A stretch of 38,695 nucleotides of DNA from Chloroflexota bacterium (GTDB lineage: Bacteria > Chloroflexota > Dehalococcoidia > Lucifugimonadales > UBA3495), in assembly GCA_026710825.1 (NCBI GenBank), contig JAPOQH010000085.1:1-38695 (forward strand), read 5' to 3'. The translations under genes and the position numbers were made by a program. Each line of letters opens with the position of its first letter. The first letter of the stretch is position 1. A model generated the notes under the pieces. The model ran no database searches. It saw only the letters and a list, made by a program, of their open reading frames with translations, and had not been told where the DNA came from. Below, piece by piece: positions 1,026-38,034 of the stretch.

Positions 1026-1484
1026 TTATCCCGTCGTTGCCGACGTCAACATCGGCGGCATCCTGCCCGTCCCGTACGCCTCTGCAATCTGCGGAGCCAA
1101 CCATTCACCCACCGTTCCGCCATCAGGCAGGACCAGGTTGGCCAGGAACTCGCTCTCCAACGTGGTGATGCCGGATTCCACCGCCTCCAGCTTGGCCCGA
1201 ATGATCAACAACAGCGCTCGCCACCGCTGCCGGCAAGCCTGTTCCCACGCTGATTGTCGTGCGGCCGCCGTCCGTCTGGCGCTCCGCGGCGTGCGTGCGT
1301 AGTCGTCGATCGACGGCATCGCCAGCATGATCTGCACGCGCCGCCCGGCCATGTTGAACGCGACAAGTGCGCGGTTCCCCTCCGTAACATAACCGAAACC
1401 GTTGGCGCCGTACTTCGCCAGCAGTTCCTCGATGTCGGTCTTGGTCCTGGAGATGGGGACCTTTGTCTGTGCGGCGTAGGGCAT
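1026..1484 (-). CDS. Conserved hypothetical phage-type protein
   Basis: 152 aa starting MPYAAQTKVPISRTK. I chose the ATG at 1484 because AGGAG lies 8 nt upstream; an ATG at 1517 is in frame but lacks this. The sequence has an N-terminal IEELLAKYGANGFGY segment, a central basic helix (SARRTAAARQSAWEQACRQRWRALLLI, interrupted only in my citing) and a C-terminal LPDGGTVGEWLAPQIAEAYGTG motif. I recall this layout from hypothetical proteins of phages and integrated elements; no enzymatic motif is visible. It is the last gene of the leftward run and lies opposite the read-through tail of the recombinase remnant. Confidence 0.75.
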   Translation of the reverse strand: MPYAAQTKVPISRTKTDIEELLAKYGANGFGYVTEGNRALVAFNMAGRRVQIMLAMPSIDDYARTPRSARRTAAARQSAWEQACRQRWRALLLIIRAKLEAVESGITTLESEFLANLVLPDGGTVGEWLAPQIAEAYGTGRMPPMLTSATTG

Positions 1485-1517
1485 CTGTTGATCTCCTCTG
1501 CGATCTCCGGTGGTCAT

Positions 1518-1701
1518 TCGAATCCAGTACAGTTCTCCCAGCCTGCGAGCGACGGTCGATGCTCGGCAATGATACGCAACCTGGGAGTTGGGCGAACAAG
1601 CAGGACTGCCGGATCATCGGCATACCAGCGGTTTGTAGCTCGGGAGCGCGGCCGTGGGGCTCTACGATGGCGTGGGCAGGGATCATCACGAAGAGTGCTG
1701 G
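1518..1701. other. Non-coding stretch inside the element
   Basis: Between the small interrupted gene and the gene starting at 1484 I see no convincing coding region on either strand. The open frames here lack ribosome binding sites and look compositionally random. Confidence 0.4.
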
Positions 1702-1869
1702 TCAACCGTTAACGCCACGTATTCGCAGGCGGAGCGTGGCAACTACGATAAGCGTTCCCTCAGGCTCGTCGTCCAGCAGCTTCATCTGCGCTTGCAACCC
1801 CTCGTGTTCGTCGGCTCACTCGACCTCCGCGTCGTTCGCGCACACGAAGATCCCGTCATTCAGTTCCAC
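1702..1869 (-). pseudogene. Small element gene with in-frame TGA
   Basis: A GTG at 1869 with AAGGAG 7 nt upstream opens a frame beginning MELNDGIFVCAND. It hits TGA at 1818-1816 after 17 codons, then stays open in the same frame for 37 codons (ADEHEGLQAQMKLL..., ...VVATLRLRIRGVNG) to TGA at 1704-1702. The strong start and protein-like sequence on both sides of the stop suggest a gene of about 54 residues with one nonsense change, for example CGA to TGA. Translation could instead restart at the internal ATG (MKLLDDEPEG). Function unknown. Confidence 0.4.
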
Positions 1870-1889
1870 CGGTCGGCTCCTTCCTGCCA

Positions 1890-2255
1890 TTAGCTCTCTC
1901 CGTTCAGGCTGGGGGCCCAGTCGTTTTCTTGAGCCGCCTGGAAAATGGACGCCGCTTTTCGCTCGCCGATCCGGCGGAGATCAGCGTCAGTCAGGTCGGA
2001 TCCCGCCAGGTTGGTGAACGGTAGCCGGAGTCTCAGACCGGGCTCCAGCTGCTGAACGGCCACGTACAGGGGGACTGACGGACCGGGCATCGTATCCGGC
2101 GTCATCAGCTCGAACGCCCGTCGCTCGTTGGGAAAGACCCTTCTCACTCGGTGCCGGCGTTTGGGTCGCCGTTGAAAGTAGATTCGGTCTGCATCCAGTT
2201 CCCGGTCGACGATGTCGGCCAGGGTCTCCATCTCTCGCTGCTTTTCGGTGTTCAT
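1890..2255 (-). CDS. Hypothetical element protein
   Basis: 121 aa starting MNTEKQREMETLADIVDRELDADR. Two consecutive ATG codons are possible; the second (2255) fits better because GAGG is 6 nt away. It contains a very basic stretch (RRPKRRHRVRRVFPNERRAFEL) that could contact nucleic acid, then a hydrophobic middle (PSVPLYVAVQQLEPGLRLRLP) and an acidic, helical tail. No known family recognised. It sits between the HNH cluster and the small interrupted gene, all in one direction. Confidence 0.6.
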   Translation of the reverse strand: MNTEKQREMETLADIVDRELDADRIYFQRRPKRRHRVRRVFPNERRAFELMTPDTMPGPSVPLYVAVQQLEPGLRLRLPFTNLAGSDLTDADLRRIGERKAASIFQAAQENDWAPSLNGES

Positions 2256-2293
2256 CATTACCCTCGCACTTGTCCGTGTCTGCCGGTTCCGGG

Positions 2294-2518
2294 TCAGTAG
2301 TCCTCTCCCAGTGGATTGGGCCCGTTCTCGAAGTTGGGCGGGAACTCCATGTGGTCCATCAGGAACTCACGGTCAACCGGAGGCGGCTTGGGCGGGAACC
2401 ACCACGTGAACGGCAGGCCGCTCCCCTCGTCTATCATCTCCACCGGCCGCCAGCCGAGATCCCGGAGTTCCCTTTCCAGGTTGGTGATGGCGGCGATCAT
2501 TTCGTGCGGGCCGGTCAT
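2294..2518 (-). CDS. Small hypothetical protein downstream of HNH gene
   Basis: 74 aa starting MTGPHEMIAAITNLERELRD and ending NFENGPNPLGEDY. The ATG at 2518 has AGGAG 6-7 nt upstream. An ATG at 2542 that overlaps the HNH stop as ATGA would add eight residues (MNDAQEKP) and would allow translational coupling. The middle is Trp/Pro-rich (FTWWFPPKPPP). No function recognised. Confidence 0.6.
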   Translation of the reverse strand: MTGPHEMIAAITNLERELRDLGWRPVEMIDEGSGLPFTWWFPPKPPPVDREFLMDHMEFPPNFENGPNPLGEDY

Positions 2519-2538
2519 TGGTTTCTCCTGCGCGTCGT

Positions 2539-2976
2539 TCATGCCACGTACTCGTATGCGGTACGGAGAATCGGCAGCTGCACCACCGGCGGCGTGATCT
2601 GGCCCGAGTCGATGAGCAGCTGGTAGATCTCCATGGCCATCGACACGCCCGGCGGCCAGGGCAGCGGCAACTGCCCGGCCTGCAGCAGCATGACCAACCG
2701 TTTCCGGATCCGGCTCAGGCGGCGGTCGGCCGCATCCCATTGGAGATGACAGCGCTGGCAGAGACACGCGAGATTCAACAGCGACGCGCACTCCGGCACC
2801 TTGTCCCAGACATGAGCCAGGGTGAGCACCACGATGCTGCCCGTGTCCGGATGGGGTTCTTCGTTCTCGGCTCCGCACCACTCGCACCGGTTCTGCGCAC
2901 GGTACTGGATGATGAACCGGCGGCGGCGCGCCCAGTCGGCCGGGTAACGCTTGGCCATTTCCTTGCTGATGGGCAT
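2539..2976 (-). CDS. HNH endonuclease-like protein
   Basis: 145 aa with an HNH/zinc-finger core: RCEWCGAENE (CxxC), LTLAHVWDK (candidate first His), an Asn-containing LLNLACLCQRCH stretch with the second CxxC and the terminal CH pair. The nuclease family is common in phages and mobile elements, where it nicks or cuts DNA in packaging, homing or restriction. The core covers roughly residues 28-85; the C-terminal part is helical. GAGG 4-6 nt before the ATG supports the start. The stop overlaps a possible start of the next gene. The short core leaves open that it is a structural zinc protein and not an active nuclease. Confidence 0.7.
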   Translation of the reverse strand: MPISKEMAKRYPADWARRRRFIIQYRAQNRCEWCGAENEEPHPDTGSIVVLTLAHVWDKVPECASLLNLACLCQRCHLQWDAADRRLSRIRKRLVMLLQAGQLPLPWPPGVSMAMEIYQLLIDSGQITPPVVQLPILRTAYEYVA

Positions 2977-2982
2977 GGTTCC

Positions 2983-3429
2983 TCAGTCAGATCCGAAACG
3001 CGGTCGGAGCATGATCGTGTGGGCGTAGCCGTCCGGAAACACGACATCGACGTCGTGAACGTTGTGCGTCTTGGCAAACCGGACCGCTTGCTCCAGGTCA
3101 TCGAACTCGTGGACGTTGCCGACGTCCGTCTTGAACCGGTACTTCACCAGGCCCTGTTCCGCGAAGACGATATGGTTCACTGCTTCCATAGAGATTCCCC
3201 TGTGTTGTGCGTGGTACCTGATCCTGGCCCGATGGGGATACATGGTGGTGGCACCTGATGCCTTGCGGCACGGCTCGCCATGTTTGGCCGGGCAACTCGG
3301 GCACGGCATGGGATTGGCGGCCAGCTTTTCGCGGGAGGCGTGCGGCAGGCGTTGGTGGCCGTTCATGGTCGTGCACTGTTCCCCGAACTTGGCGTGGTAC
3401 GCGGCGCAATAGACGCTCAGCGGGCTCAT
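2983..3429 (-). CDS. Phage-type zinc-binding protein (two Cys/His modules)
   Basis: 148 aa. Two successive modules of the small phage zinc-binding type are visible near the N-terminus: CAAYHAKFGEQC...H and CPSCPAKHGEPCRKASG...H. They follow the C-x-x-[CY]-x-A-x-x-G-x-x-C...H pattern often seen in actinophage proteins. The C-terminal half (NHIVFAEQGLVKYRFKT ... VVFPDGYAHTIML) looks like a separate small beta-rich domain. It has its own ATG at 3190 preceded by AGGGG, so an internal start or an old gene fusion is possible. The ATG at 3429 was chosen because it lies just after the upstream gene's stop; its ribosome binding site is weak. Confidence 0.65.
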   Translation of the reverse strand: MSPLSVYCAAYHAKFGEQCTTMNGHQRLPHASREKLAANPMPCPSCPAKHGEPCRKASGATTMYPHRARIRYHAQHRGISMEAVNHIVFAEQGLVKYRFKTDVGNVHEFDDLEQAVRFAKTHNVHDVDVVFPDGYAHTIMLRPRFGSD

Positions 3430-3451
3430 TTCCAAGGGGGACGATAGGTGG

Positions 3452-6397
3452 TCATCGCTCAACCTCCACGTTGGCGTCCTCGCCGGTGAGGATCCTCCTG
3501 ACCTCCAGGGAATCAACGCGCCCGGTCTGACAATCCTGGCATGTGTCTCCATATTCGTCAGGCAACAGCGGCCGTGCGCAAAGGGCACAAACTCGTTTCT
3601 CGCCCGAAACGGCCATCGGTTTTTGCGCCGCAGTATCTGAACCCTGCAATCCCTGCAATTCCTGCAACGGCTCCCGGGTTTCCGGAGGCACCAGCGGGAA
3701 CGCTCCCACCGTGGCGTCGGCCACCTGCAGCATGAAGGTCGGGTAACGGTTACCGTACATTGGACCGGCGACGATCCTCACCGTTGCGTCGTCGAGCTCG
3801 TAGGTCTGGTCCAGCCAGGTCTTGATGAGCTTGGTCAGGTTGGACCTCCGCTGTTTGTCGTTGGTTCCCCTGACCCTGAGCATTCCCTCAGCATCGTCGT
3901 CGTTGGAGTCTCCCAGCGCCACCAGGGCCAAATCCTTGGTCATCACGGGATTGGACTTGTGCGTATCCCACCACCACTGTACGAAGGGCCGTTGCGCCGC
4001 CTCGGCATCGGTGATAGCCCTTTCCTCGAACTCCACCGTATTGCCGGCGAAGTCGGTGAGCCCAGCGGCTTCCAGGATCGCCGCGGTCTGCCGCTGCCAG
4101 GCGGGATAGCGCCGGAGACCCTGGGGCAACTCCGAGGCGGGCGGCTTACCTTGCTCCAACCAGTGATGAATCAGGGAAAGCGCGGCGTTCCTGTACTTGG
4201 CCAGGTTGACGACCAAGTGTTCCTTGACGTCCGGATGGCGGAAGTCGGTGCGCTGGTCCGGTCTCTCTACCCCCGCGTTCAGTCGCACGGGTAGGGTGCG
4301 GTTGGCCAGTTCCGCCGTCATGATCACGTTGTTGGCGGTACCGACGATCACGAAGTTGCGCGGGTTGAAGGTCATGTTTCGGCTGGTGCCCAGGTCCCGG
4401 GCGGTGAAGCTGTCGTCCGCGGTGAGCAGCTCCGCGAGCATGGCACTGGACATTACGCCGGACAGGTTGTCCAGCAGCACCACGCCGCTGGCGGCGCGGC
4501 AGGGTGCGGCCACCCGCTTCTCGAACTCCAGCATCTCACCGTTGCAATAGGTGACCCGCTCCGACTTCTTGCCGGTGCTGAGCACTGCCACCAGGTTGGC
4601 CAGCAAAGTGGCTCCGGTGCCCGACTTGGGCTTGTCGAACATGAACATTGGCGCGATGTCGTAGGAACGGCGGCAGATCCGCGTGATGATCGCGGCGTAC
4701 AGATTGGTGCGGTCCGCCGTCTGGTTGGCGAAGGGGAAGTCGTGGAACAGGTCGTCCAGATCCTCAACGGCCTTCTCAATGGCCACAGGCGCGAACGGGA
4801 TGCGGTTCTTCAGGTAGACCCTCTCCTCGGGGTGATAGCCTTCTTCGGTGACCAACCGGTCGCCCGCGCCGTTCAGAAAAGGGTGCGTGATCACCGCGTC
4901 CAGTTGAGGCAGATGGTCGGGAAGGTTGATCAGCAGCGCGCTGGTCACGGTGCGTTGGGGGTGATGACGCTTGGGGGTATGCAGCGCGTAGCTGACCTGC
5001 ATAGACCCATCCGAACGCGCCTTGACCTCCCGGGCAACCCAGCTGTGTTCCTCACCGTCGATGCCATCCACCAGCGCGGCCGCTTCCTTCCAGGCCTCCA
5101 AATCCGCATTGGGATCGGGTTCAACCAGCAGGGCCCGTTGTTGATAGCCCAGGTACCAGAACACCGACGATGCGGCCAGGATTGCGATGCTATCGCCGGT
5201 GTGCTCCGTGATTTCGAGTCCGCCCTGGTCGTCGGACGCCAGGTAAACCAGCTTGCCGTCCCTGACGTAGAGACTCGGCTGCTGCAGGTCCTCCTCCCGC
5301 TGGAAGATGCCGGCCCACACCTGGCCCACGTGGTCGTCGAAGTGTTCCTGCTTGGTGGCCGCCACCAGTGGCCGCCTGGTCAGCGTCCGGCACCGGTCGC
5401 CCAGGTTATGCACGGCCAACTCCAGGTAAAGCGGACCCAGCTCGCGGACTGGTGAAAACCAGCCTTCCTCGATCACGAGGGCCCGTTGCTCGATGTCCAG
5501 GTCGGCCAGGTCCTCGCCGCGGCGATGAAACGCGTCCGTGGGCAGGATGCGAACCTTGTGGGAGCCAGCCTCGATGCAGCGTATGGCGGCGGCGAGCGCG
5601 GCCTTCGTGCCGGGCCGGTCGTTGTCCGGCGCGATCAGCACGTCCATTCCAGCGATGGGCGTGTAGTCGGCGCGCTCAGCTCCGCTGGCGCCGCCCTGGT
5701 AGGAGAAGGCCCTCCACCCACAGGCGGCCGCCGCCTCCGCTGTGCTCTCGCCCTCGGCGATCACCGCCCAGTTGTCCGTTCCGCCACCGTCGGTTTGTTG
5801 TTGCATGGCGTTGCGGCGATTGCAGGAATTGCAGGAATTGCAGGGTTGACCATCCACCGGCGAAGAACAGTCGGCGTTTTCGGGGGTTTTAGGCGTTGCA
5901 GCGAAGTGTTCCAGCAGCAGGAACCCGTCTGTCGGCCAGCCCTGCCACTGCGCCACACGCCGGATCCACGGATGCTTGTGGGCAAACCGGTCGCCGCAAT
6001 CCTTGCGCCAGCACGGACCGTCATAGCGTTCCACCACCTGAACCGCTTCCTCGCCGGTGAGTCTGTTGACGTAGGTCCACTCCCGCACCTGATAGGGCCG
6101 GCCTGCCTCCACCGACTCCGGCAACCGGTACTCAGGAAGACCCAGGTTGCCGGTGATGCGGTGCTGGGCTCCCATCCACACCTCTTTCCCGCCCTTGTGC
6201 TTGTGGCAGTGGAAATAAACGCGACCGTCTTTCTCGGTGGCCCAGCAGCCGGCACGGTTGTCGCCGCCCACGTGGCAGGCGCGGGAGTTGAAACTGAACC
6301 CACCCCGGTTACCCAAGCGAGTGGGCTTGAAACCCAGGGCGGTCGCCGCGGCGTGGGCCTCCTCGAGTGTGAAGGCGTTTGACGAGTACGAAGGCAT
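3452..6397 (-). CDS. Phage/element replication protein: Zn-finger, Toprim and AAA+ ATPase (primase-helicase-like)
   Basis: 981 aa, ATG at 6397 with AGGGG 8 nt upstream. An N-terminal Cys/His cluster (C41, C51, C64, H66) resembles a primase zinc finger. A Toprim-like segment at about 210-262 has the acidic residues AEGES and APDND. A C-terminal P-loop ATPase follows: DKPKSGTGATLL (590-599), Walker B VVLLDN (639-644), sensor Asn in VGTANN (687-690) and an Arg-finger candidate ELANR (R700). The Walker A lysine is replaced by Ala (GTGAT for GTGKT), unexpected for an active ATPase unless a clade feature. A zinc ribbon (CALC...CQDC) sits near residues 937-956. This is the only replication gene of the element. 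Two inverted copies of a 28-bp repeat lie inside it, at 3640 and 5820. Confidence 0.8.
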   Translation of the reverse strand: MPSYSSNAFTLEEAHAAATALGFKPTRLGNRGGFSFNSRACHVGGDNRAGCWATEKDGRVYFHCHKHKGGKEVWMGAQHRITGNLGLPEYRLPESVEAGRPYQVREWTYVNRLTGEEAVQVVERYDGPCWRKDCGDRFAHKHPWIRRVAQWQGWPTDGFLLLEHFAATPKTPENADCSSPVDGQPCNSCNSCNRRNAMQQQTDGGGTDNWAVIAEGESTAEAAAACGWRAFSYQGGASGAERADYTPIAGMDVLIAPDNDRPGTKAALAAAIRCIEAGSHKVRILPTDAFHRRGEDLADLDIEQRALVIEEGWFSPVRELGPLYLELAVHNLGDRCRTLTRRPLVAATKQEHFDDHVGQVWAGIFQREEDLQQPSLYVRDGKLVYLASDDQGGLEITEHTGDSIAILAASSVFWYLGYQQRALLVEPDPNADLEAWKEAAALVDGIDGEEHSWVAREVKARSDGSMQVSYALHTPKRHHPQRTVTSALLINLPDHLPQLDAVITHPFLNGAGDRLVTEEGYHPEERVYLKNRIPFAPVAIEKAVEDLDDLFHDFPFANQTADRTNLYAAIITRICRRSYDIAPMFMFDKPKSGTGATLLANLVAVLSTGKKSERVTYCNGEMLEFEKRVAAPCRAASGVVLLDNLSGVMSSAMLAELLTADDSFTARDLGTSRNMTFNPRNFVIVGTANNVIMTAELANRTLPVRLNAGVERPDQRTDFRHPDVKEHLVVNLAKYRNAALSLIHHWLEQGKPPASELPQGLRRYPAWQRQTAAILEAAGLTDFAGNTVEFEERAITDAEAAQRPFVQWWWDTHKSNPVMTKDLALVALGDSNDDDAEGMLRVRGTNDKQRRSNLTKLIKTWLDQTYELDDATVRIVAGPMYGNRYPTFMLQVADATVGAFPLVPPETREPLQELQGLQGSDTAAQKPMAVSGEKRVCALCARPLLPDEYGDTCQDCQTGRVDSLEVRRILTGEDANVEVER
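3640..3667 (+). repeat. 28-bp inverted repeat, left copy
   Basis: Built of roughly three 9-10 bp units related to CCTGCAATT. It matches the reverse complement of 5820-5847 at 27 of 28 bases. In the host gene it encodes an LQELQGLQ run near the C-terminus. Confidence 0.85.
5820..5847 (-). repeat. 28-bp inverted repeat, right copy
   Basis: Reverse complement of the 3640-3667 copy with one mismatch. In the coding frame it gives a CNSCNSCN run near residue 186, in the linker before the Toprim-like segment. Because the two copies are inverted they encode different peptides, so selection on protein sequence does not explain the match. Confidence 0.85.
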
Positions 6398-6573
6398 AGT
6401 TATTTCCCCTGGGCAGATTTGGGACGTCCCGATGAACTGTTTTCGAGGTCCTTACTGATGTTAGGGAATTTCAGACAGGGGCTTGTCACAGGGTCTCGTT
6501 CAAGGCCGTCCAGCGGCCCTCCGAGAGGGTGGTGGCGATTGATCAGACGAACCGTGAATGACCCCATCGTCAA

Positions 6574-6915
6574 TCACAGTCGGCGACGCCGGCTGTCTAT
6601 CGCCAGGCGCTCCCTGGTGTCGCTCATGTCGGTGTTCATGTTGCGCGGCGTCAGCGCTCTCGCCGGCCAGTCAGGCCGGTCGGTCTGGTACCCGCAAGTC
6701 TGGCAGATGGCCCAGTCTGGACCGGAAATCCGCATGTCTCCGTGGCCGCAGCGGGGGCACTCGGTCGCGGGATACTCGCCGCGAGCGATGCTGTCCGCCC
6801 ATTCCTGGTGCAGACGGCTGCAGTACGCGTGCTGTTCATCGCCGCTGCTCGCGGTCCTGTAGCAGCGCTTCCCGCGCCAGGCGCAGTTGGCCATCCGTGT
6901 GGTCGATGTGCTCAT
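6574..6915 (-). CDS. Small zinc-ribbon protein
   Basis: 113 aa. Contains an N-terminal C..C..C..H cluster (CAWRGKRC ... YCSRLH) and a typical zinc ribbon CPRCGHGDM...CQTCGYQ at about residues 53-76, followed by a basic tail. The ATG at 6915 overlaps the stop of the upstream gene as ATGA, which indicates translational coupling. A second ATG eight codons in (MANCAWRG) is possible. Probably nucleic-acid binding or structural; no family recognised. Confidence 0.65.
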   Translation of the reverse strand: MSTSTTRMANCAWRGKRCYRTASSGDEQHAYCSRLHQEWADSIARGEYPATECPRCGHGDMRISGPDWAICQTCGYQTDRPDWPARALTPRNMNTDMSDTRERLAIDSRRRRL

Positions 6916-7349
6916 GCGCAGGACTCACCATCCCGGGCGGCCCTGAACTCCTGGGTTTTTTGTCGGATCTGCTGTCTGATTGCGTGGTATTGCAGGAGGA
7001 GGTCCTGCCTGCCCGCCTCAGCAGCCTCGTGGCGTTCTTGGTCGTAGTTGCGCCGAATCATCAGCGCGACGAACTCGGACTCTTCCACGTCCTCGTATCG
7101 GACGTAACCGAAGCTGTTCTTGTGCAACTCCCAGCCCGCCGCTGCCATTTCGTTCATGGTCTCCTGGATTTCAGCGGCGGTGCCGCCGGAGGCGATCTGC
7201 CACGGTTCAGAGTCAAAAACCTCCCTGTTGGCGGCGTTCAGCTTCTCCCGCATGGGACAGAGCGGACAAGGAGCGCACCAGTGCGCGACGTACACCAGCT
7301 CGCAGTGCTCGCAGTAGTTGATGACGTCGTGGTTCTGGGTTGTGGTCAT
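6912..7349 (-). CDS. Hypothetical protein with N-terminal zinc finger
   Basis: 145 aa starting MTTTQNHDVINYCEHCEL. The ATG at 7349 has GAGGAG 8 nt upstream; an upstream in-frame ATG at 7370 lacks one. Residues 13-31 contain CEHC and CAPCPLC, a probable zinc finger. A GWELHKNSFGYVRYED segment in the middle recalls small sticky-fold domains, and the C-terminal third is a charged helix. It overlaps the next gene by ATGA. Its start context (TCACAATGACCAC) is nearly the same as that of the gene at 7427-7642. Confidence 0.6.
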   Translation of the reverse strand: MTTTQNHDVINYCEHCELVYVAHWCAPCPLCPMREKLNAANREVFDSEPWQIASGGTAAEIQETMNEMAAAGWELHKNSFGYVRYEDVEESEFVALMIRRNYDQERHEAAEAGRQDLLLQYHAIRQQIRQKTQEFRAARDGESCA

Positions 7350-7426
7350 TGTGATCAGCTCCTCTCGCATTCATGGCTTGCGCCGCCACGGGACCTATCC
7401 TTCCACGGCGGCGCTTTTCGTTGGCG

Positions 7427-7642
7427 TTACCGGTCGTTCAAGATGTGGTTGACGCTGTGCTTATCCCGGTCTTGGAGGCGTTCCATGATCTCGGAATCCC
7501 GGGTCCTGGCCTCCCGCAGGTGAGTACGTCCAAGATCGGTCAGGTTCCAGCGATCATCCATGATCAATTCGTTGAGCAGCTTGTTGACGACTAGATCGTC
7601 GTCTGGTTCGGCGTCGACGGTAGGGTGGTTGGTCGTGGTCAT
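7427..7642 (-). CDS. Small acidic/helical element protein
   Basis: 71 aa starting MTTTNHPTVDAEPDDDLVVN. I prefer the ATG at 7642 because its context matches the start of the next gene downstream, although the ribosome binding site is poor; ATGs at 7657 and 7666 are in frame. The sequence NKLLNELIMDDRWNLTDLGRTHLREA resembles a winged-helix or HTH-like fold (the phrase LTDLGR is common in wHTH proteins). A regulatory role is possible but unproven. Confidence 0.5.
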   Translation of the reverse strand: MTTTNHPTVDAEPDDDLVVNKLLNELIMDDRWNLTDLGRTHLREARTRDSEIMERLQDRDKHSVNHILNDR

Positions 7643-7662
7643 TGTGATAGACACCATTCGAT

Positions 7663-8031
7663 TCAAAGCTTTGCGCCGTCGTCGGGAATGGGCGTCCCTT
7701 CGACGGCGTTATCGTTGACCGCGGAGCAGGATTTGTTCGTAGGCAGCGCGGGTGCCCGGTAGAGTTCGTCCGGCGCATCAACCAGGCCGTTGTGGTTGTG
7801 AACCTGAACGCTGGCGGCCTGTTGGGTGGCACGGATCCGTGCCACTGCCCACTTCCTGAACTGGTAGTGGGGAATCCGGGTCGCATCGTCTGCGCACTCT
7901 GCGTGTCGAACGTCCTGTCCCTTCCTGCCGGGCTCGTCCCAAAGGAAGGGGTTCCAGCCCACGCTGACGGTGATCGTGTCGTCACAGAGGCTGCCGCCCT
8001 CGATGGGCAACCCGCACTTGGTACAGTCCAC
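7663..8031 (-). CDS. Hypothetical element protein with N-terminal CxxC
   Basis: 122 aa with a GTG start (8031) and a strong GGAGG 7 nt upstream. It opens with MDCTKCGLPIEGGSLCDDTI, a knuckle-like Cys cluster, then WNPFLWDEPGRKGQDVRHAECADD with a further His/Cys pair; together these could bind one zinc. The C-terminal part is low in recognisable motifs. First gene after the directly repeated 15-mer at 8070-8103. Confidence 0.6.
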   Translation of the reverse strand: MDCTKCGLPIEGGSLCDDTITVSVGWNPFLWDEPGRKGQDVRHAECADDATRIPHYQFRKWAVARIRATQQAASVQVHNHNGLVDAPDELYRAPALPTNKSCSAVNDNAVEGTPIPDDGAKL

Positions 8032-8069
8032 AAAAAAGCCTCCAACTTTTCAGTTAGAGGCTAGGCTAA

Positions 8070-8103
8070 TCAAGACAGTGCAGATTTGTCAAGACAGTGC
8101 AGA
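8070..8103. repeat. Two 15-bp direct repeats, possible operator
   Basis: TCAAGACAGTGCAGA occurs at 8070-8084 and 8089-8103, a 19-bp period. The pair lies between the HTH gene and the GTG gene downstream; the second copy contains the last codons of the HTH gene. Direct repeats in this position are typical binding sites of small excisionase/MerR-like proteins, here plausibly the product of the adjacent gene. Confidence 0.5.
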
Positions 8104-8490
8104 ACGTTTCGGGCCAGGTTTCCTTGGATTATCTCGACAACGCAAAATTTCGGCCTCAACGGTCACGATATAGCCGCCCCGGGCAGTTGGCCCTCGAAGG
8201 CGCCCGACCTCAGGCAATTTGCCTCGCCGTACCCACGCTCGTAGGGTGTTACCTGAAATACCATACCGCTTGCTGGCACTGGGCAGGTCAATCAGACCCT
8301 CCGGCAGTTCGCCAGGTTCGTAGATGACATCGTCTGTCTCTTCGGATTGGATGCCGTTGGGGGGCGTTGCTTGGTTCTCGGTCGCGGTGATCATGCTGGC
8401 CATTTCGGCTTCGGACATCCCGTCCTCGCGGGCCCGCTCGATGGCGGCCCGGAAAGCTTCGCGCTTCGGATCATCGCCGTAGGTTAGCAT
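8089..8490 (-). CDS. HTH (MerR/excisionase-like) DNA-binding protein
   Basis: 133 aa. The N-terminal half is an acidic helical region (REAFRAAIERAREDGMSEAEM). The C-terminal half contains a winged HTH of the excisionase/MerR type: DLPSASKRYGISGNTLRAWVRRGKLP, then the wing RGGYIVTVEAEIL. Such proteins act as excisionases or element repressors. It is the first gene of the leftward run and lies on the tRNA-Gly side of the element. No Shine-Dalgarno sequence is visible before the ATG, so the mRNA may be leaderless or the start may differ. Confidence 0.65.
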   Translation of the reverse strand: MLTYGDDPKREAFRAAIERAREDGMSEAEMASMITATENQATPPNGIQSEETDDVIYEPGELPEGLIDLPSASKRYGISGNTLRAWVRRGKLPEVGRLRGPTARGGYIVTVEAEILRCRDNPRKPGPKRSALS

Positions 8491-8739
8491 ATCGGTTCGC
8501 GGTTTGTCCCAATGCTTACAACAGGGTTCAGCCAGCGGCGATACGTGCGGTCCGGTAAGGTTTGATGCGGTCTGATTTAGGCCGACGTGCAGGACATACG
8601 CGATTTGGTAGGATCAGGTTCCATCGGGTCTGAAATCATCCAAATCCGTTCGTGTTGGCGGCACTGGCGGGCGGGAAATGCCTTGAGGTGCTGCCGAAGA
8701 TGGAGGATCCCTACTTGAAACGCCCGCGATCAGGAAATA
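8491..8739. other. Gap between element and tRNA-Gly
   Basis: No gene recognised. I looked for a duplicate of the tRNA 3' end here and at the other end of the element (1-400) and saw none, so no attachment-site pair can be named. Confidence 0.4.
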
Positions 8740-8813
8740 TGGAGCGGGCGATGGGAATCGAACCCACGTAGCCAGCTTGGAAGGCTGGGGCTTTACCACT
8801 AAGCTACGCCCGC
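8740..8813 (-). tRNA. tRNA-Gly (anticodon TCC)
   Basis: The minus strand folds as a cloverleaf: acceptor GCGGGCG/CGCCCGC, D-arm with AGTGGTA, anticodon stem CCAGC/GCTGG with loop CTTCCAA (TCC, reads GGA), T-arm TGGG-TTCGATT-CCCA, discriminator T and an encoded CCA (8742-8740). A TATAAT lies 12 bp upstream of the 5' end. tRNA genes are common integration targets, which fits the element immediately downstream. Confidence 0.95.
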
Positions 8814-8824
8814 TTGGCTATTGC

Positions 8825-8830
8825 ATTATA
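8825..8830 (-). promoter_or_regulatory. Candidate -10 box of tRNA-Gly
   Basis: TATAAT on the minus strand, 12 nt before the tRNA 5' end. No convincing -35 box is visible at 16-18 nt. An unrelated GC-rich 7-bp hairpin (8842-8863) lies upstream. Confidence 0.45.
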
Positions 8831-8895
8831 CTCCAAGAAATGGCGCCCGACCTGATGGGCGCCCGCAATGCCACTCCCGCGCAGTCCCCGAAACG

Positions 8896-9363
8896 ATGCC
8901 CAACACCATCTACCTGGCCAACCCTTACGGCTTTTCCGCCCAGCAAAAAGAGTCGCTACTGCCGCCCATCATCGCCGCGCTGGAGAGCCTTGGTCTGGAA
9001 GTGTGGGAACCATTTGCCCGCAACAACCAGGTGGACTTCCAGCGGGCCGGTTGGGCCTACCGCGTCGGCCAGCAGGATTTTGCCGACGTGGTCGCGGCCG
9101 ACGCAATCTTCGCGGTGGTCAACGGTGTACCGCCTGACGAAGGCGTGATGGTCGAATTGGGGATGGCAATCGCGCTGGGCAAGCCGACGTTCCTGTTCCG
9201 CGACGATTTCCGTCGGGCCACCGACAGCGAGGAATACCCGCTCAACCTGATGCTGTTCACCGGAATTCCGGAGCAAGATTGGATGGATTACTACTACACT
9301 TCGTTGGGCGAAATCACCGCACCCGACAAGGCTTTGGCTCAGTGGGCGTCCTCAACGGTATAG
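8896..9363 (+). CDS. Nucleoside 2-deoxyribosyltransferase-like protein
   Basis: 155 aa. The family transfers or hydrolyses the deoxyribose of nucleosides or nucleotides. Typical elements are the N-terminal strand IYLANPYGFS (residues 5-14), the ADAIFAVVNGVPPDEG block (D69, D81) and the catalytic Glu in GVMVELGMAIALGKP (E87), followed by FLFRDDFR. ATG 8896 is chosen because homology begins right there; the upstream in-frame ATG at 8821 overlaps the tRNA promoter. Length is normal for the family. Alone on the plus strand, followed 84 bp later by the monooxygenase gene. Substrate unknown (salvage, or DNA precursor sanitation). Confidence 0.8.
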   Translation: MPNTIYLANPYGFSAQQKESLLPPIIAALESLGLEVWEPFARNNQVDFQRAGWAYRVGQQDFADVVAADAIFAVVNGVPPDEGVMVELGMAIALGKPTFLFRDDFRRATDSEEYPLNLMLFTGIPEQDWMDYYYTSLGEITAPDKALAQWASSTV

Positions 9364-13085: not shown

Positions 13086-13131
13086 CGATTCCCGTCTAAC
13101 ACCAACGATTCAGCGACTTTGGAGGCTCGTG

Positions 13132-14334
13132 ATGCCCCGTTTGGAAGTTTTGTCCGAAGTACAGCGCCGCATGCTGGAGTTTTTCCCCTGCATGGAATCC
13201 GACGAATCGCCGTGGTCTCCGCTGGGGAAACCGCTCGCGGAGAGCATCGTGGCTATCGTCACCACTGCTGGTCTGCACCTTCGCGATGACAAGCCCTTCA
13301 ATCGCGACCATCCCGGCGGAGAGTCTACGTACCGCATCCTGCCCAGCGATGCCGACACGGCTGACATCGTCCAGAGCCATTTCAGTATCGGCTTCGATCG
13401 CACGGCCATCTACCGGGATATCAACATCACCTATCCCATTGACCGGATGCGCGATTTGGCTGAACAACGCGTCATCGGCTCATTGGCTCCCAACAATTAC
13501 TCATTCATGGGCGCTCTGCGCGACTGCACCGTGGTCGCCGAGCAAACCGGACCCGAGGTTGCCCAGCGTCTCAGAGATGAGGGAGTCGACCTGGTTTTCC
13601 TCACACCAACTTGACCACTGTGCACTCACGCCGTGAGCGTGCTGGCCCGCGTATTTGAAACGGCCGGACTGACCACCGTCGCCGTAGCATTGGTGCGGGA
13701 ACATGCCGAAAGAGTCAAACCACCCCGCGCCCTGTGGGTGCCATTCTACTTCGGCTATGCGCTGGGCAAGCCGGACGACCCCAAATTCCAACACGAGGTC
13801 ATCTCCGCGGCGCTGGATCTGGTAAAAGCCACCGCGGGTCCCGTACTGGCGGATTATCCCGATGACGCCGGCCCGGTAGGCATGCCGCAGGCCTCAGACG
13901 TTGCTACCGCCGCGACCAACGGCGAAGCCAAGCCGCTGGATGCCGCCGGTGAAATCACCGCCCTGCGCGGTTATTACGAGCGGTGGCAGGAACAGCGGGG
14001 TCGCACCGCCGTGGGGATCACCGGCATCCCTCAGCGCCGTTTCCGGGGAATCATCAGGTTCCTGGAAGCCTACGCCGCCAGCGACGACGCCGATATGGAC
14101 GAGCGGCCCGACGACGTTTCCATCCCGCAGTTTGCTCGCTACTGCGCCGACGACCTCAAGGCGTTCTGCTACGAGGCGCGCATGGCGCAACGTCCTGACG
14201 ACGATGAGACGGAAATCCATAGCTGGTTCTGGGGCGAGACTGCAGTGGGCGCGTTGATCGACAGCATCACGCAACGGTTGACCGCAACCGACGACCCCAA
14301 GCTCCAGGCAACCGCTTACGGTCTGTCGCGTTAG
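13132..14334 (+). CDS. PrdB-like (D-proline/glycine/sarcosine/betaine reductase B family) protein, probable selenoprotein
   Basis: One 400-codon frame read across an in-frame TGA at 13612-13614 (residue 161). Before it the sequence is typical of this family: ...AIYRDINITYPIDRMRDL, IGSLAPNNYSFMG, DEGVDLVFLTPT. After it, still in frame, come PLCTHAVSVLARVFETAG and VKPPRALWVPFYFGYALGKP, equally typical. In cysteine-containing members, as I recall, the site reads TP-x-CPLC; here TGA takes the first Cys, giving UPLC, a UxxC redox motif. A hairpin directly after the TGA (13615-13645) could be the bacterial SECIS. ATG 13132 has GGAGG 6 nt upstream. An additional C-terminal domain of unknown function runs from about residue 260. 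Physiological substrate unknown. Two separate genes or a nonsense mutant are the alternatives. Confidence 0.75.
13615..13645 (+). promoter_or_regulatory. Candidate bacterial SECIS hairpin
   Basis: Directly after the TGA the RNA can fold CCA-(cugu)-GCA-CUCAC-[GCC]-GUGAG-(cg)-UGC-UGG. It has a 5-bp upper stem, 3-nt apical loop beginning with G, and lower helices with small bulges. The loop starts 15 nt after the UGA, at the short end of the range described for bacterial SECIS elements, which also call for a G early in the loop. Confidence 0.5.
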
Positions 14335-14361
14335 GATCGTCTCGGACACCGTCGGCGACCC

Positions 14362-14389
14362 AAGGGGGCCGTTGGTGGACGGCTCCCTT
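14362..14389. terminator. Bidirectional terminator between convergent genes
   Basis: AAGGGGGCCGT (14362-14372) pairs with ACGGCTCCCTT (14379-14389) over 11 bp (one G-T) with a 6-nt loop, between the stops of the PrdB-like gene and the MscS gene. Confidence 0.65.
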
Positions 14390-14398
14390 ATTCATCAG

Positions 14399-15625
14399 CT
14401 AAACATCCGGTCCATCCCCTCCACCTCCGGGCGCGTCTGACGGCAGGTGAGACCGAGAGCGCACCGCGGGCGCTTGCCTGCCCGTTATCGGTGGAGGAGG
14501 CGTTGGTTGACCGTCCTGCGGGGTCCAGCCATCGGGGAAATGCAAGGTGCGCACGGGGTAGTTGATGGTGATGTCCTCGGACGCCAACCGGGCGTGTAAT
14601 TGCTTGATCAGCTCAGTCCGAACCTCGAAACTGGCGAGCCGGTCCGCTGCCTGCATGAACAGCCAGAAATCGATGTTGCTCTCGCCAAAGGTGTCGTAGC
14701 CGAAGTACACTCCGTAGTCCTGCACCACACCCGGATGCTCGCGCTCAACTTTCTGCATCACCTCCATGCTGACCGCCTCAACCATCTGCAGATCGCTCTC
14801 GTAGGCCACTCCACAGGTCAGGAAAACGTTGACGTGTTCATCCGGCTTGCTGAAATTGGTGATGATGGTTTCCGCGAAACGGGAGTTGGGGATCACCACC
14901 AGGTTGTTGGTCCACGTCCTGAGACGGGTGCTCCTCCAATTGACATCCACCACGTAACCGGTTACGCCGTTTTCCATCTCGATGTAATCACCCGCGCTGA
15001 CCACTCCCTCGGTGATCACGTAGGTTCCCGCAAACAGGTTGCTGAGCGTGGGTTGCAGAGCCAACGCCACCGCCAGCCCGCCGATGCCCAGACCTGCGAT
15101 CAACGGGCTGATGTTTATTCCCAGGATGTCCAACGAAACCATCGCGGACATGGCAACAACGACGATCATCACGCCGCGCCGCGCCAGGGGCAGCGCCCAA
15201 TTGCCGGCGTTTTCGGGATCGCTGCTTTCGAGCAACTCTTCCAGCCAGTAGATGACTGCTCCACTCGCTGCGGTGATCATGAAAGCCCCGATCACAATCG
15301 CGATCAGCGCGGCTATTCTGTTGACCACATCCTGCACGGTATCGGCGAGGTGGAGCGGGAACGTGGCAGCTATGTACGCTCCGGCAAGTATGATAAGAGC
15401 GGTAACCGGACCCCGAGCCGCCGAAATTATCCGGTCGTCCAGATCTCCTGCCGAGAAATGCGCCATTCGCAGCATCAACCTGGACAGGAGCCTACTGAAC
15501 AGAAACGCAAAAACTATCGAAGCAGCGAGAATGATCCCGGCCACGGTAAGGTCCGCCCATGTGACGGTCGTACCCGCAGCCCACTCCAAAAACCCATGCC
15601 ACCAATTGTTTATGTAATCGCCCAT
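14399..15625 (-). CDS. MscS-family mechanosensitive ion channel
   Basis: 408 aa. Small-conductance tension-gated channel of the inner membrane that releases solutes on osmotic downshock. The N-terminus has about four membrane segments (residues 24-48, 75-90, 102-125, 148-168). The pore helix LIAGLGIGGLAVALALQPTLSNLFAGTYVI is the family signature, followed by the beta domain (GDYIEMENGVTGYVVDVNWRSTRLRTWTNNLVVIPNS). The last 50 residues are Pro-rich and disordered. It follows the Sir2 gene by 7 bp and ends in a terminator. Confidence 0.9.
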   Translation of the reverse strand: MGDYINNWWHGFLEWAAGTTVTWADLTVAGIILAASIVFAFLFSRLLSRLMLRMAHFSAGDLDDRIISAARGPVTALIILAGAYIAATFPLHLADTVQDVVNRIAALIAIVIGAFMITAASGAVIYWLEELLESSDPENAGNWALPLARRGVMIVVVAMSAMVSLDILGINISPLIAGLGIGGLAVALALQPTLSNLFAGTYVITEGVVSAGDYIEMENGVTGYVVDVNWRSTRLRTWTNNLVVIPNSRFAETIITNFSKPDEHVNVFLTCGVAYESDLQMVEAVSMEVMQKVEREHPGVVQDYGVYFGYDTFGESNIDFWLFMQAADRLASFEVRTELIKQLHARLASEDITINYPVRTLHFPDGWTPQDGQPTPPPPITGRQAPAVRSRSHLPSDAPGGGGDGPDV

Positions 15626-26194: not shown

Positions 26195-27121
26195 GTGCCT
26201 GAGCAAGAATTCGACGTACTGATTATCGGTGGCGGCATGGCCGGATTGACCGCCGGAATCTACGCATCCCGATACGGCCTGAACACCGCCATCGTCGAGC
26301 AGATGATGGCCGGCGCACAGATCATCAACCTGGACAAGATCGAGAATTTCCCCGGCTTCCCGCAGGGCATCGCCGGCTATGAATTGGGTCCCGCGACTCA
26401 GGAACAGGCGATGAACGCCGGGGTCGAAGTGTTGATGGACACTGCCACCAACATTTCGGTTGACGGCGACTACCTGCGCGTCACGGGGGATATGGGCGGC
26501 AGCTATCGAGGCAAAGCCGTCATCATGGCCGCCGGTTCCTCCCTCCGTTCCCTGGGCATAGCGGGCGAGGAGGAATTCGCAGGTCGCGGCGTGTCCCACT
26601 GCGCAACCTGCGACGGCCCGCTGTACATGGGCCAAACCGTTGCCGTGGTGGGTGGGGGCGACTCCGCAGCCGATGAGGCGCTGACTCTCACCGAATACAC
26701 CGACCGCGTCATACTGATAGTTCGCGGCGACTCCCTGGGCGCCCAGCAGGTCCTGCAGGACCGCATCGCGTCGAATCCCAAGATCGAGGTCCGTTACAAC
26801 ACCGAGGTCGCGGAGATCGTGGGCGAGGACACCGTAACGGGCGTCAGGACCAACGGACCCGACGGCGAAACGGTCGAGCCGGTCAACGGCCTGTTCATCT
26901 ACGTGGGCCTCGACCCCAACTCGGCTTCAGTTGCCGATCTCGTACCGCTCGACAACGCCGGCCACATCCCGGTCGGCCTGTCCATGGACACGCCACAGCC
27001 GGGCCTGTTTGCGGCTGGCGACATTCGCCAGCAGTCCGCCGCCCAACTGGTGGCGTCCGCCGGCGACGGCGCAACCGCAGCCATCGCCGCCTTCCGCTAC
27101 ATCAGCGCCAAAGAGTGGTAG
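26195..27121 (+). CDS. trxB: Thioredoxin reductase-like FAD/NAD(P)H oxidoreductase
   Basis: 308 aa, GTG start at 26195 preceded by GAGAGG. N-terminal FAD motif IIGGGMAGL (10-18), redox centre CATC (C136, C139) in SHCATCDGP, NAD(P)H motif VVGGGDSAADEALTLTEY, C-terminal FAD-binding LFAAGDIR. Reduces thioredoxin or a related disulfide protein. Length matches bacterial TrxB. Followed 48 bp later by the MBL hydrolase gene in the same direction. Confidence 0.9.
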   Translation: MPEQEFDVLIIGGGMAGLTAGIYASRYGLNTAIVEQMMAGAQIINLDKIENFPGFPQGIAGYELGPATQEQAMNAGVEVLMDTATNISVDGDYLRVTGDMGGSYRGKAVIMAAGSSLRSLGIAGEEEFAGRGVSHCATCDGPLYMGQTVAVVGGGDSAADEALTLTEYTDRVILIVRGDSLGAQQVLQDRIASNPKIEVRYNTEVAEIVGEDTVTGVRTNGPDGETVEPVNGLFIYVGLDPNSASVADLVPLDNAGHIPVGLSMDTPQPGLFAAGDIRQQSAAQLVASAGDGATAAIAAFRYISAKEW

Positions 27122-30866: not shown

Positions 30867-31994
30867 CTATCGATCAATCAGTTCGGCAATGGCATCAGTC
30901 AAACGGACGCAGTCGTCCACGGGTCGCAGGCCGATGCGGATGCAGTCCGGCAGTCCGAACGAGGTGCAGTCCCGGACAAACAATCCCTGCAGCGCCAACC
31001 GGTCGCGCAGCTCAGGAGCGTCTCCCACACGGGCCAGGATGAAGTTGGCGGCAGTGGGATAACACTGAATTCCCAAAGCGCCCAGTCGTTCCACGACACA
31101 CTCGCGGGACACCGCCACTGCTCGCCGCGCCCGGGCCAGATACTCCTGGTCTGCGATCGCTACCATCCCCGCCGCCTGCGCCAACCCGTTTACGCTCCAG
31201 TCGGGCTGCAATGCCTGCAATCGGGCGATGACTGCGGGCGCGGCGATCCCGTAACCCAACCGCAGCGCGGTCAGCGCGTAATCCTTGGTCATGGAGCGCA
31301 GCACCACTATCGAAGAATGCCGAGCCGCCAGCGCGATAGCGCCGGCTTCTGCCCAACGGTCGGACAGGTTGATGTACGCTTCGTCCAGAACCAGCAGGCC
31401 GCCAGCGACGTGCATGGCGTCGGCCAGGGATTCGATATCGGGCAAAGTAATCAGCGCGCCGGTCGGGTTGTTGGGGTTACAGACGAACGTCAGCGCCGGT
31501 CCGTGGGATGAGATGAGCCGCACGGCGGAATCGGTGTCCCAGGTAAATTCGCGGCAGCCCCGAGTCGCCGGCAGCGCATGCACCTTCCCTCCAGATATCC
31601 GGACTGCCCCGTCATACTCCCCGTAAGTGGGCGTCAACAGCAATGCTGAACGGGAACCATCGGCAGGCATTTGCTCGATGTACGCACGGGTCAGCAGGTG
31701 GATGATCTCGGTCGATCCATTGCCGACTATCACGTTGCCCGCATCCACGCCATCACGCCCATGGTGTGTTGCGATGGCTTCAGTCAGGGCGAGGCAGTGC
31801 GGGTCGGGATACGAGGACAGATCAACACCGGCGATAGCCTCCGCCACACCGTCCGGCGGACCCAACGGACTTACGCTGGCGGAAAAATCGAGACAGTCTT
31901 CCAGGCGAAGGCCCAGGGCCCTCAGCTCGGCTTCCTTGATGCCGCCATGGACGGGCCGAGCGGTGGATTCGGTGGTGTTGTGGTCGTTTTGCAT
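30867..31994 (-). CDS. cobD: L-threonine-O-3-phosphate decarboxylase-like aminotransferase
   Basis: 375 aa fold-type I PLP enzyme. PLP Lys K237 in RSMTKDYALTALRLGYG, Asn in CNPNNPTGA, Asp in LVLDEAYINL. CobD makes (R)-1-amino-2-propanol O-2-phosphate, the linker of the lower ligand arm. The sequence resembles histidinol-phosphate aminotransferase, as CobD does, and the operon context argues for CobD. Starts MQNDHNTTESTARPVHGG; the ATG is 42 bp after the cbiB stop. Confidence 0.8.
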   Translation of the reverse strand: MQNDHNTTESTARPVHGGIKEAELRALGLRLEDCLDFSASVSPLGPPDGVAEAIAGVDLSSYPDPHCLALTEAIATHHGRDGVDAGNVIVGNGSTEIIHLLTRAYIEQMPADGSRSALLLTPTYGEYDGAVRISGGKVHALPATRGCREFTWDTDSAVRLISSHGPALTFVCNPNNPTGALITLPDIESLADAMHVAGGLLVLDEAYINLSDRWAEAGAIALAARHSSIVVLRSMTKDYALTALRLGYGIAAPAVIARLQALQPDWSVNGLAQAAGMVAIADQEYLARARRAVAVSRECVVERLGALGIQCYPTAANFILARVGDAPELRDRLALQGLFVRDCTSFGLPDCIRIGLRPVDDCVRLTDAIAELIDR

Positions 31995-32036
31995 CGGACT
32001 AGAGCCGCAAGCCGGCGACGGGTTATCTTACACTCA

Positions 32037-33017
32037 CTAAGGCCAGAACGCCCACCGGATCCAGATGAGCCCTACTCCGACTGCGGCAGAAAGGATTGCT
32101 GTGGCATACAGGGCGCGGGTCGCGGCAGCGATGTGCCGCGGCGACGGTTCGGGCGCGGGATCGCCCAGGCGGTAGTGCCCGATTTTTTCCAGCGTGACGC
32201 CCAGACCGCCGGCCATGGCGGCCATGGTCCAACCGGCGTTGGGCGATTCCGTGCGGCTGCGATGGGAAATCATGACGCTCCACGCCCTCCCCGCAGCCAT
32301 CCCGGGGAGCATGGAGGTCGCGACCCACAGCAGGGCGGCGGCCACCCGTGCTGGAATCAGGTTCACCAGATCGTCCAGCCGGGCCGACGCCTTGCCCAGG
32401 TATTCGTACCGGCCGTGGTAGCCCACCATGCTGTCCAGCGTGTTGATGGCGCGGTAGGCCACCGCGCCGGGGAGTCCGAACAGGGCGAATGCCAGGAGCG
32501 GGCCCACCACGCTGTCGGTGATGTTCTCGGCCACTGATTCGATCGCGCCGGCGGCCATCTGACCAACGGTTAGCTGCGAGGTATCGCGGCTGACCAACGC
32601 GGACATCTGCCGGCGCGCGTCGGCGATATCTCCAGACGCCAGTATCCGGCCTATGTCGGCCGCCACCCGATGCAGCATCCGCACCGAGAACGTGGTCTTG
32701 AGGAGAATAGCAACGACCACAAGGTAAGCGAGAGGATGGAGTTGCATCAAACCGAACGCCGCCGCCCACGCCGCCGCGCCCCATGCTGTCGGAACCAACA
32801 GAGCCATCGCGACGCCCGCCGCCAGTTGTGCCGGCGCAGACGAGCCGGGCCCGGGCGCAATGCGTTCCGCCAACGCCACCGTCTTGCCAATCCAGACGGT
32901 GGGATGCAGACGGTTGGGCGGCTCACCCACAGACAGGTCCAGCAGCAGCGCCAGAATGAGCGCCAGCACGTCCAATGGGACGGGCAGCGAGTTCAGAGTG
33001 TGGGCCAACGCGTCCAC
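32037..33017 (-). CDS. cbiB: Adenosylcobinamide-phosphate synthase
   Basis: 326 aa integral membrane enzyme that attaches aminopropanol (phosphate) to adenosylcobyric acid. About five hydrophobic segments are visible; marks are LDLSVGEPPNRLHPTVWIG, INTLDSMVGYHGRYEYLG, and the SPNAGWTMAAMAGGLGV region. It begins 1 bp after the cobS stop, indicating tight coupling. Confidence 0.88.
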   Translation of the reverse strand: MDALAHTLNSLPVPLDVLALILALLLDLSVGEPPNRLHPTVWIGKTVALAERIAPGPGSSAPAQLAAGVAMALLVPTAWGAAAWAAAFGLMQLHPLAYLVVVAILLKTTFSVRMLHRVAADIGRILASGDIADARRQMSALVSRDTSQLTVGQMAAGAIESVAENITDSVVGPLLAFALFGLPGAVAYRAINTLDSMVGYHGRYEYLGKASARLDDLVNLIPARVAAALLWVATSMLPGMAAGRAWSVMISHRSRTESPNAGWTMAAMAGGLGVTLEKIGHYRLGDPAPEPSPRHIAAATRALYATAILSAAVGVGLIWIRWAFWP

Positions 33018-33018
33018 G

Positions 33019-33900: not shown

Positions 33901-33914
33901 TGTTTGAGCGACCG

Positions 33915-37720: not shown

Positions 37721-37799
37721 AACGATGGTGGGCTGGTTCCGTGGAACCGCGGCTTGCGCCGAACACGTCCGCCCACTCGTTCCACGAAGTGCAGCTGGA

Positions 37800-38030
37800 T
37801 CACACCCGTTGGCAGGCCTCCTGGCTAATGGCTGATAGCGATGCTCCTCCGCCTTCCCATCCGCCCAATGCGGAAAGTGGCTGGAACCGGGGATTGGTCT
37901 TCAATCCCCTTTGGAGGGCATCTCGCCAATTACAGTGGCGGGACCGCACCGGATTTGCACCGGATTTCCTTTTCAGCTCGTCTTGTCCGCGGAATCGCGG
38001 ATCTGGACAAGCCACCTGCGGGAGTTCACG
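37800..38030 (-). promoter_or_regulatory. Cobalamin riboswitch
   Basis: The minus strand carries the conserved core: GGTGCAAATCCGGTGCGGTC, then CCCGCCACTG (GCCACTG at 37939-37933), a variable arm, and AGCCAGGAGGCCTGCC (about 37830-37811). The 5' arm pairs near 38010-38030. Ends are approximate. It is followed by the terminator at 37685-37720 and the cobalamin operon, so it should repress the operon when adenosylcobalamin is abundant. Confidence 0.93.
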
Positions 38031-38034
38031 ATTC

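Follow-up and report, generated by a model that had tools for sequence, protein, structure and literature searches.

Among the closest described systems to the locus treated here is D-proline reductase, whose selenoprotein PrdB carries selenocysteine (Sec) at residue 152 of 242 in C. sticklandii (PMC3091704). The mechanism put forward in the accessible text of that paper has the nucleophilic Sec attack the alpha carbon of a proline bound to the pyruvoyl group of PrdA, after which a Cys of PrdB cleaves the selenoether and the selenide-sulphide is re-reduced. The accessible part of PMC10838667 links GrdB-related proteins to C-F cleavage in fluoroacetate, so the chemistry of the wider family may not be confined to amines. 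UxxC selenoproteins labelled 'proline reductase PrdB' (pfam07355), in both Sec and Cys forms, have been reported from marine metagenomes, initially from the Sargasso Sea (PMC1088965, published in 2005) and later from GOS (PMC2398784), and the available text of the latter counts 235 'PrdB' sequences in GOS and places them among the commoner marine selenoprotein families. The fusions named in the accessible portions of PMC2398784 and PMC9402790 are those of Prx, Prx-like, UGSC, SelD, deiodinase-like and MucD proteins, with no PrdB fusion among them, and the reviews PMC13188914 and PMC9312934, in their accessible passages, describe PrdB without a long form.

The window, a stretch of 38,695 nucleotides from a Chloroflexota bacterium (contig JAPOQH010000085.1), encodes a PrdB-like protein with a UxxC site and an additional C-terminal domain (Table 1). 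An earlier note on this DNA, made without database searches, had read the gene as the Sec form of a poorly characterised family; the recoding is well supported, but a Sec core of this kind is not new, since the UxxC 'PrdB' family is already in print in the two marine studies, as far as their accessible text goes. The protein probably belongs to the same broad family as those marine sequences, from which it is set apart by their published descriptions, which in the portions available mention no PrdB fusion. The long form, a core joined to a helical domain of about 130 residues, is apparently undescribed, and no report of it was found in the open-licence literature.

Table 1. Features of the window discussed in the text (positions in the 38,695-nucleotide stretch).
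Feature	Position	Strand	Basis or remark
Zinc-dependent MDR alcohol dehydrogenase, class III / NDMA-dependent type by best scores	11918..13048	+	upstream neighbour
Long PrdB-like selenoprotein gene	13132..14334	+	400 codons, single in-frame TGA
PrdB-like core, residues 26-232	13207..13827	+	TIGR04483, PF07355
TGA, predicted Sec161 of U-P-x-C motif	13612..13614	+	TGA in relatives, Cys in stop-free relatives, Sec machinery
Cys164 codon, putative resolving Cys of UxxC	13621..13623	+	invariant in 57 aligned long forms
SECIS-type hairpin CACGC / loop CGUGA / GCGUG	13627..13641	+	covariation
All-helical C-terminal domain, residues 269-400	13936..14331	+	no Pfam/PDB relatives; invariant residues; model
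Thioredoxin-reductase-like flavoprotein	26195..27121	+	TIGR01292 E 2.3e-94, 315.6 bits, below cut-off 343.45

Reading frame and recoding of the UGA

The frame opens at the ATG at 13132, with GGAGG just 5' of it, and closes at a TAG (14332-14334), the lone in-frame TGA falling at codon 161 in the context TPT-U-PLC-TH; coordinates, frame and TGA are all as the earlier note gave them. A mechanical list of open reading frames divides the gene in two (13129-13614 and 13633-14334). Relatives in six other genomes, 48-53% identical, run through the same TGA, and as far as sequence can tell the two halves are one protein.

A search of 400 genomes of the same phylum found relatives in 91, and among the 109 matches listed 87 contain exactly one TGA, 19 contain no stop and 3 are of other kinds. 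The TGA lies at the same place in 29 aligned relatives of 30 fetched, a frameshifted copy (L040, from genome G161) having been left out of this alignment and also of the tree and the hairpin counts described below. G161:C428 (L226) holds a frameshifted copy of the long gene, through either error or decay. A scan of contigs with patterns that avoided the Sec codon confirmed at least 501 relatives, of which the best 80 were kept, at least two of them (L068 and L098) clipped by contig ends; TGA occupies the site in all 80 of these best-scoring long relatives, with no further stop inside the match. TGA is the rarest true stop, closing just 17 of the 78 long genes whose end falls inside the available sequence and 82 of 317 ORFs conserved in the neighbourhood, so its presence at the site is not chance. 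Since all 80 relatives, drawn from other records, show it, a sequencing error is very unlikely. Cys stands exactly at the Sec site, in the motif CPLC, in 18 of the 18 fetched stop-free relatives that cover it (a TAA listed for the match of the eighteenth falls outside the aligned gene). The earlier note had expected just such a motif and proposed comparing homologues at this codon, and the Cys forms and the TGA forms both agree with it. The UxxC motif is invariant in 57 aligned long forms. One short-form relative (L225, G302:C266:2200-3400) reads U-P-I-U, a UxxU variant in which TGA takes the place of the resolving Cys as well as that of Sec.

The genome from which the window derives (3.86 Mb, 137 contigs, 91.7% complete) holds all four of the genes by which the earlier note had suggested checking its reading: selC, a tRNA-Sec of 66.4 bits with anticodon tca; selB (366 bits, cut-off 242); selA (548 bits, cut-off 268); and selD (377 bits, cut-off 125), the SelD gene itself having an in-frame TGA. 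ARAGORN identifies a second tRNA match, likewise above the cut-off of Rfam, as a tRNA-Ser. Among 32 host genomes chosen from this genome and those of the 80 loci, SelB exceeds its cut-off in 31, the exception (G421) being a draft bin. Taken together, comparative evidence of this kind indicates that the UGA at 13612 is almost certainly decoded as selenocysteine.

The UGSC family (PF24696), Sec-based likewise, occurs in 25 of the 32 host genomes and adjoins the long gene at one locus (L114), and PF24696 is absent from the Pfam matches of the long protein at E-values up to 1. The window's genome (G000) has nine UGSC matches (for example C26:101207-101716), eight of them listed with one in-frame TGA each, and the betaproteobacterial host G423 has 22; these two long-form hosts are selenoprotein-rich bacteria. 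According to the accessible text of PMC5649159, most bins of sponge symbionts have SelA and SelB and most related references do not, a pattern consistent with Sec-rich relatives.

A conserved hairpin downstream of the UGA

Counting from the U of UGA, nucleotides 16-20 pair with 26-30 (13627-13631 with 13637-13641), so that the hairpin begins 12 nt past the UGA, and its loop (13632-13636) carries G-U. In 77 distinct long-form segments (80 loci and the window, identical segments counted once), 95.8% of the cells of this helix are paired against a mean of 87.9 in shuffles, doubly changed cells number 41 against 12.3, and the covariation score is 0.343 against 0.191, each value being reached in none of 500 shuffles; sliding the partners by 1-3 columns leaves 5-64% paired. 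The number of pairs changed on both sides does not go beyond the shuffles (127 of 500 as high), nor, clearly, does the number of further pair types (47 of 500 as high). The clearest pair, 19-27, in which position 27 is a third codon position, is G-C in 56 of 82 long forms, A-U in 24, G-U in 1 and unpaired in 1. A kinship-aware test of this pair finds five independent pairs on the whole tree, and two, both of them concordant, when it is limited to branches with strong support; the sign test is not significant because independent pairs are too few, related sequences sharing their history.

Folded as a single sequence, 13606-13665 shows no stability beyond that of shuffles (z 0.37), 117 of 200 of which do as well. 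The putative SECIS-type helix is thus supported by covariation and not by energy. The earlier note had placed a folded hairpin directly after the UGA; a conserved hairpin with compensatory changes does follow, but it is not the one named there, and the argument from folding falls away with the unremarkable energy. Cys forms show no consensus hairpin in 15 distinct segments, and the 19 short Sec forms show a weak one in shifted register (-1.5 kcal/mol, where the long form has -6.5).

Core and C-terminal domain

The core matches TIGR04483 (PrdB) over profile positions 18-219 of 238 with an E-value of 3.2e-43, and it shares with D-proline reductase PrdB the placement of Sec in UxxC, here Sec161 of 400; its 147.9 bits are half of the NCBI cut-off of 300. 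Residues 24-160 match PF07355 (GRDB) with 39.6 bits, over the gathering cut-off of 22, although the match is partial (profile 212-347), and TIGR01918 (glycine/sarcosine/betaine reductase selenoprotein B) gives 44.5 bits, under its cut-off of 65.45, over profile positions 217-384 of 431. Compared with GrdB, GrdF and GrdH and the fluoroacetate reductase components, then, the last third of the GrdB profile is matched, up to the Sec, whereas the first 210 or so positions of the GRDB profile are missing. A racemase-like fold, an idea drawn from a sequence motif, found no support in an hhalign comparison with PF01177 (Asp/Glu racemase superfamily), which yielded a probability of 1.2% over 38 columns.

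The statement in the earlier note that both halves match the reductase family holds for residues 26-232 and not for residues from about 265 to 400, which have no significant Pfam or NCBIfam match and which correspond to the extra C-terminal domain that the note had also described. With 56 members scanned against Pfam the best E-value for this domain is 0.02, and against PDB sequences it is 0.019; searches for solved structures by sequence gave nothing significant (best E-values 0.04, 0.019 and 0.31). The domain has invariant residues of its own in 57 aligned long forms (E274, R291, E348, W365 and T370), and across the long forms D89, D96, N98, Q220, R291 and E348 are invariant. An AlphaFold2 model of the whole chain (57 sequences, Cys for Sec; mean pLDDT 92.2, pTM 0.92) predicts a single compact chain in which an alpha/beta core extends to residue 241 and is followed by a weaker linker (about 241 to 270) and then by helices only, and places residue 161 between strand 154-158 and helix 164-177.

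Distribution of the long form

Core sequences from 118 relatives (the window, L171-L173, the 80 contig loci and 17 each of the short Sec forms and the Cys forms) were placed in a tree by a quick method, with long branches flagged. A single branch (SH-aLRT 90) separates all 82 long rows from the rest, the 17 Cys forms make one group (support 100), and the short Sec forms, 19 in number, require two changes. In this tree the long form is one clade, and Sec (TGA) is kept in all 80 long members compared (the best 80 of at least 501) and Cys is found in none. Within the same phylum, short PrdB-like proteins with Sec or Cys share the core and the active-site codon but are without the C-terminal domain and fall in separate parts of the tree, their Sec forms having the weaker, register-shifted helix. 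The C-terminal domain occurs in 13 of the 400 phylum genomes, with 20 of its 21 matches inside long genes (one frameshifted copy contributes two of the 20, as separate pieces) and the remaining match in a short fragment, G161:C439. The 80 loci extend from SAR202/Dehalococcoidia and other Chloroflexota to Entotheonella, Rokuibacteriota, Nitrospinota, Clostridiales, alpha-, beta- and deltaproteobacterial bins and Afipia sp. 1NLS2, with the reservation that bins may be mislabelled. L107 (6298-11113, corresponding to G388:C27) carries three long PrdB-like genes, all within 5 kb on one strand.

Partners and gene neighbourhood

The PrdA/GrdE family (PF09338) is found in 7 of the 32 host genomes, which serve as a control, and not in the other 25, the 91.7% complete genome of the window among them; these are draft genomes. 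PrdC exceeds its cut-off in 0 of 32 hosts, in a search without a positive control, no control genome having exceeded the cut-off either. The protein differs from D-proline reductase PrdB in score, in its extra domain and in a genome where no PrdA-family protein was found and no PrdC exceeds the cut-off, and with half the NCBI cut-off and no PrdA-family protein found in its genome the name PrdB should not be taken as a function.

The ORFs of the window and the 80 loci were clustered, and 99 same-strand chain neighbours from 50 of the 81 loci were scanned against Pfam. The commonest family among them, zinc dehydrogenase, has just 5 members, so the long gene has no common gene partner; for the short forms, no neighbour cluster is present in more than 4 of 20 loci, the gene's own two halves aside. 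In the window an MDR alcohol dehydrogenase gene does lie where the earlier note placed it, on the same strand and 83 bp upstream; its top scores, each under the respective cut-off, are to the class III and the NDMA-dependent alcohol dehydrogenases. It is kept upstream in 12 further close relatives (79-96% identity), and elsewhere among the 81 loci there are just a 59% homologue downstream (L091) and a 27% homologue upstream (L120). At L085 the long gene is followed after about 50 bp by a grdC-like gene (over the NCBI cut-off) and then, on the same strand, by grdE-like and grdB-like genes. This run is found at 1 of 81 loci, and its host is one of the seven with PF09338.

Genes of the sel set lie within the examined flanks at 2 of 81 loci. 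At L106 (6257-21268, Afipia sp. 1NLS2) two long PrdB-like genes, the second likewise split (between 6721 and 6740), are accompanied by a type II haloacid dehalogenase, thioredoxin reductase (TrxB), selA, selB and a gene read by eye as a solute symporter. L114 is a compact island (1266-9272) of selB, selA, selD, tRNA-Sec, a fusion with a weak thioredoxin-family match, a UGSC gene and a long PrdB-like gene. Eight of 81 loci (L071, at 14313-15404, L070, L072, L073, L110, L111, L114 and L130) share a protein of about 360 residues, encoded within 10 kb of the long gene, that matches no Pfam or NCBIfam family; in L114 a fusion of 530 residues includes it. The window also contains a cobalamin riboswitch (37794-38034, minus strand, 87.4 bits) on the same strand as a run of CobD-, CbiB-, CobS- and CobT-like cobalamin genes (30867-34982).

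A proposed mechanism and its alternatives

The reading that we favour, to which we give a probability of roughly 55% as a whole and with the recoding included, is that the protein is a stand-alone selenol reductase in which Sec161 is resolved by Cys164 and recycled by thioredoxin. The UGA would be translated as Sec161 by tRNA-Sec and SelB acting on the hairpin 12 nt further on. Carrying over by analogy the Sec/Cys chemistry proposed for PrdB in the accessible text of PMC3091704, the selenolate of Sec161 would attack the carbon that bears the leaving group in a small, already activated substrate (an alpha-substituted carbonyl, for example), Cys164 would resolve the selenoether to a selenenylsulfide, and thioredoxin with thioredoxin reductase would restore the site. 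That published mechanism, as described there, needs a pyruvoyl partner that 25 of the 32 hosts, as draft genomes, seem to be without, so the same chemistry may not apply; the enzyme proposed here would act alone, on a substrate needing no Schiff base, with the helical C-terminal domain perhaps replacing the missing pyruvoyl partner as a substrate pocket, lid or dimer interface, of which pocket and lid are guesses. That the enzyme would need no partner is suggested by the PF09338 counts, by the lack of a PrdC over cut-off (in the search without a positive control) and by the diversity of the neighbouring genes, and the grd-like run at L085 speaks against it. The thioredoxin link is suggested, against the rarity of sel genes in the examined flanks (2 of 81 loci), by TrxB near selA and selB at L106 and by the thioredoxin-family fusion at L114, and in the window the thioredoxin-reductase-like flavoprotein 12 kb away is a possible, unproven source of electrons for the long protein. 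The haloacid dehalogenase at the single locus L106 offers a hint as to substrate.

A thiol peroxidase or general thiol-disulfide oxidoreductase, its UxxC pair acting on hydroperoxides or disulfides with no cleavage of a carbon-heteroatom bond, would fit the standing of UxxC as a common redox motif of marine selenoproteins in the available text of PMC2398784, the peroxidase activity of GrdB named in the title of a reference within the accessible part of PMC3091704, and the thioredoxin-family neighbour at L114. The core is nearest to substrate reductases, though, and not to Prx or Trx, and invariant residues such as D89, Q220 and R291 suggest a specific pocket beyond the redox pair, so that we consider this unlikely while by no means negligible. 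It is improbable that the protein is instead a subunit of a multi-protein reductase of the proline or glycine type with its partner encoded elsewhere in the genome: the grd run at L085 and the PF09338 proteins of seven hosts speak for such an arrangement, but the run is confined to that one locus, and the family was not found in the remaining hosts, the window's included, although absence from draft genomes is no proof.

A functional unit with the upstream MDR dehydrogenase, in aldehyde or alcohol metabolism, would be compatible with the other readings and is in keeping with the close spacing on one strand and its retention in the 12 close relatives; the near lack of such a neighbour at the other loci makes it distinctly improbable. 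It is extremely improbable that translation simply stops at the TGA, or that the codon arose by a pseudogene mutation or an error of assembly, to leave a 160-residue protein and a separate downstream ORF, as the two ORFs of the mechanical caller and the unremarkable energy of the single-sequence hairpin might suggest. The TGA recurs in every one of the best 80 of at least 501 relatives with the frame open beyond it, Cys takes the same codon in all 18 stop-free relatives, the hairpin covaries and the genome has complete Sec machinery; on recurrence, Cys exchange, covariation and stop-codon usage a stop, a pseudogene and a sequencing error are all rejected.

Beyond the stand-alone reductase itself lies a broader and speculative proposal, which we hold to be unlikely in its full extent: that the long form represents a hitherto undescribed, single-chain class of selenoenzyme in which a PrdB-type selenol site has been freed from its pyruvoyl partner by fusion to a new, pocket-supplying helical domain. 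Such an enzyme would be a Sec-dependent reductive lyase of carbon-heteroatom, possibly carbon-halogen, bonds, spread from Chloroflexota to Proteobacteria, Nitrospinota and others and set beside sel genes in some alphaproteobacteria.

Concluding remarks

Because standard gene calling splits genes of this kind at the UGA, many annotations may lack the 44-kDa protein. The label 'PrdB' on the marine selenoprotein family suggests proline reduction, yet a PrdA-type partner was not found in 25 of the 32 hosts. A clade that keeps Sec in 80 of 80 members (the best 80 of at least 501) and Cys in none, and that has a domain of its own, is a defined target for finding the function of these proteins.
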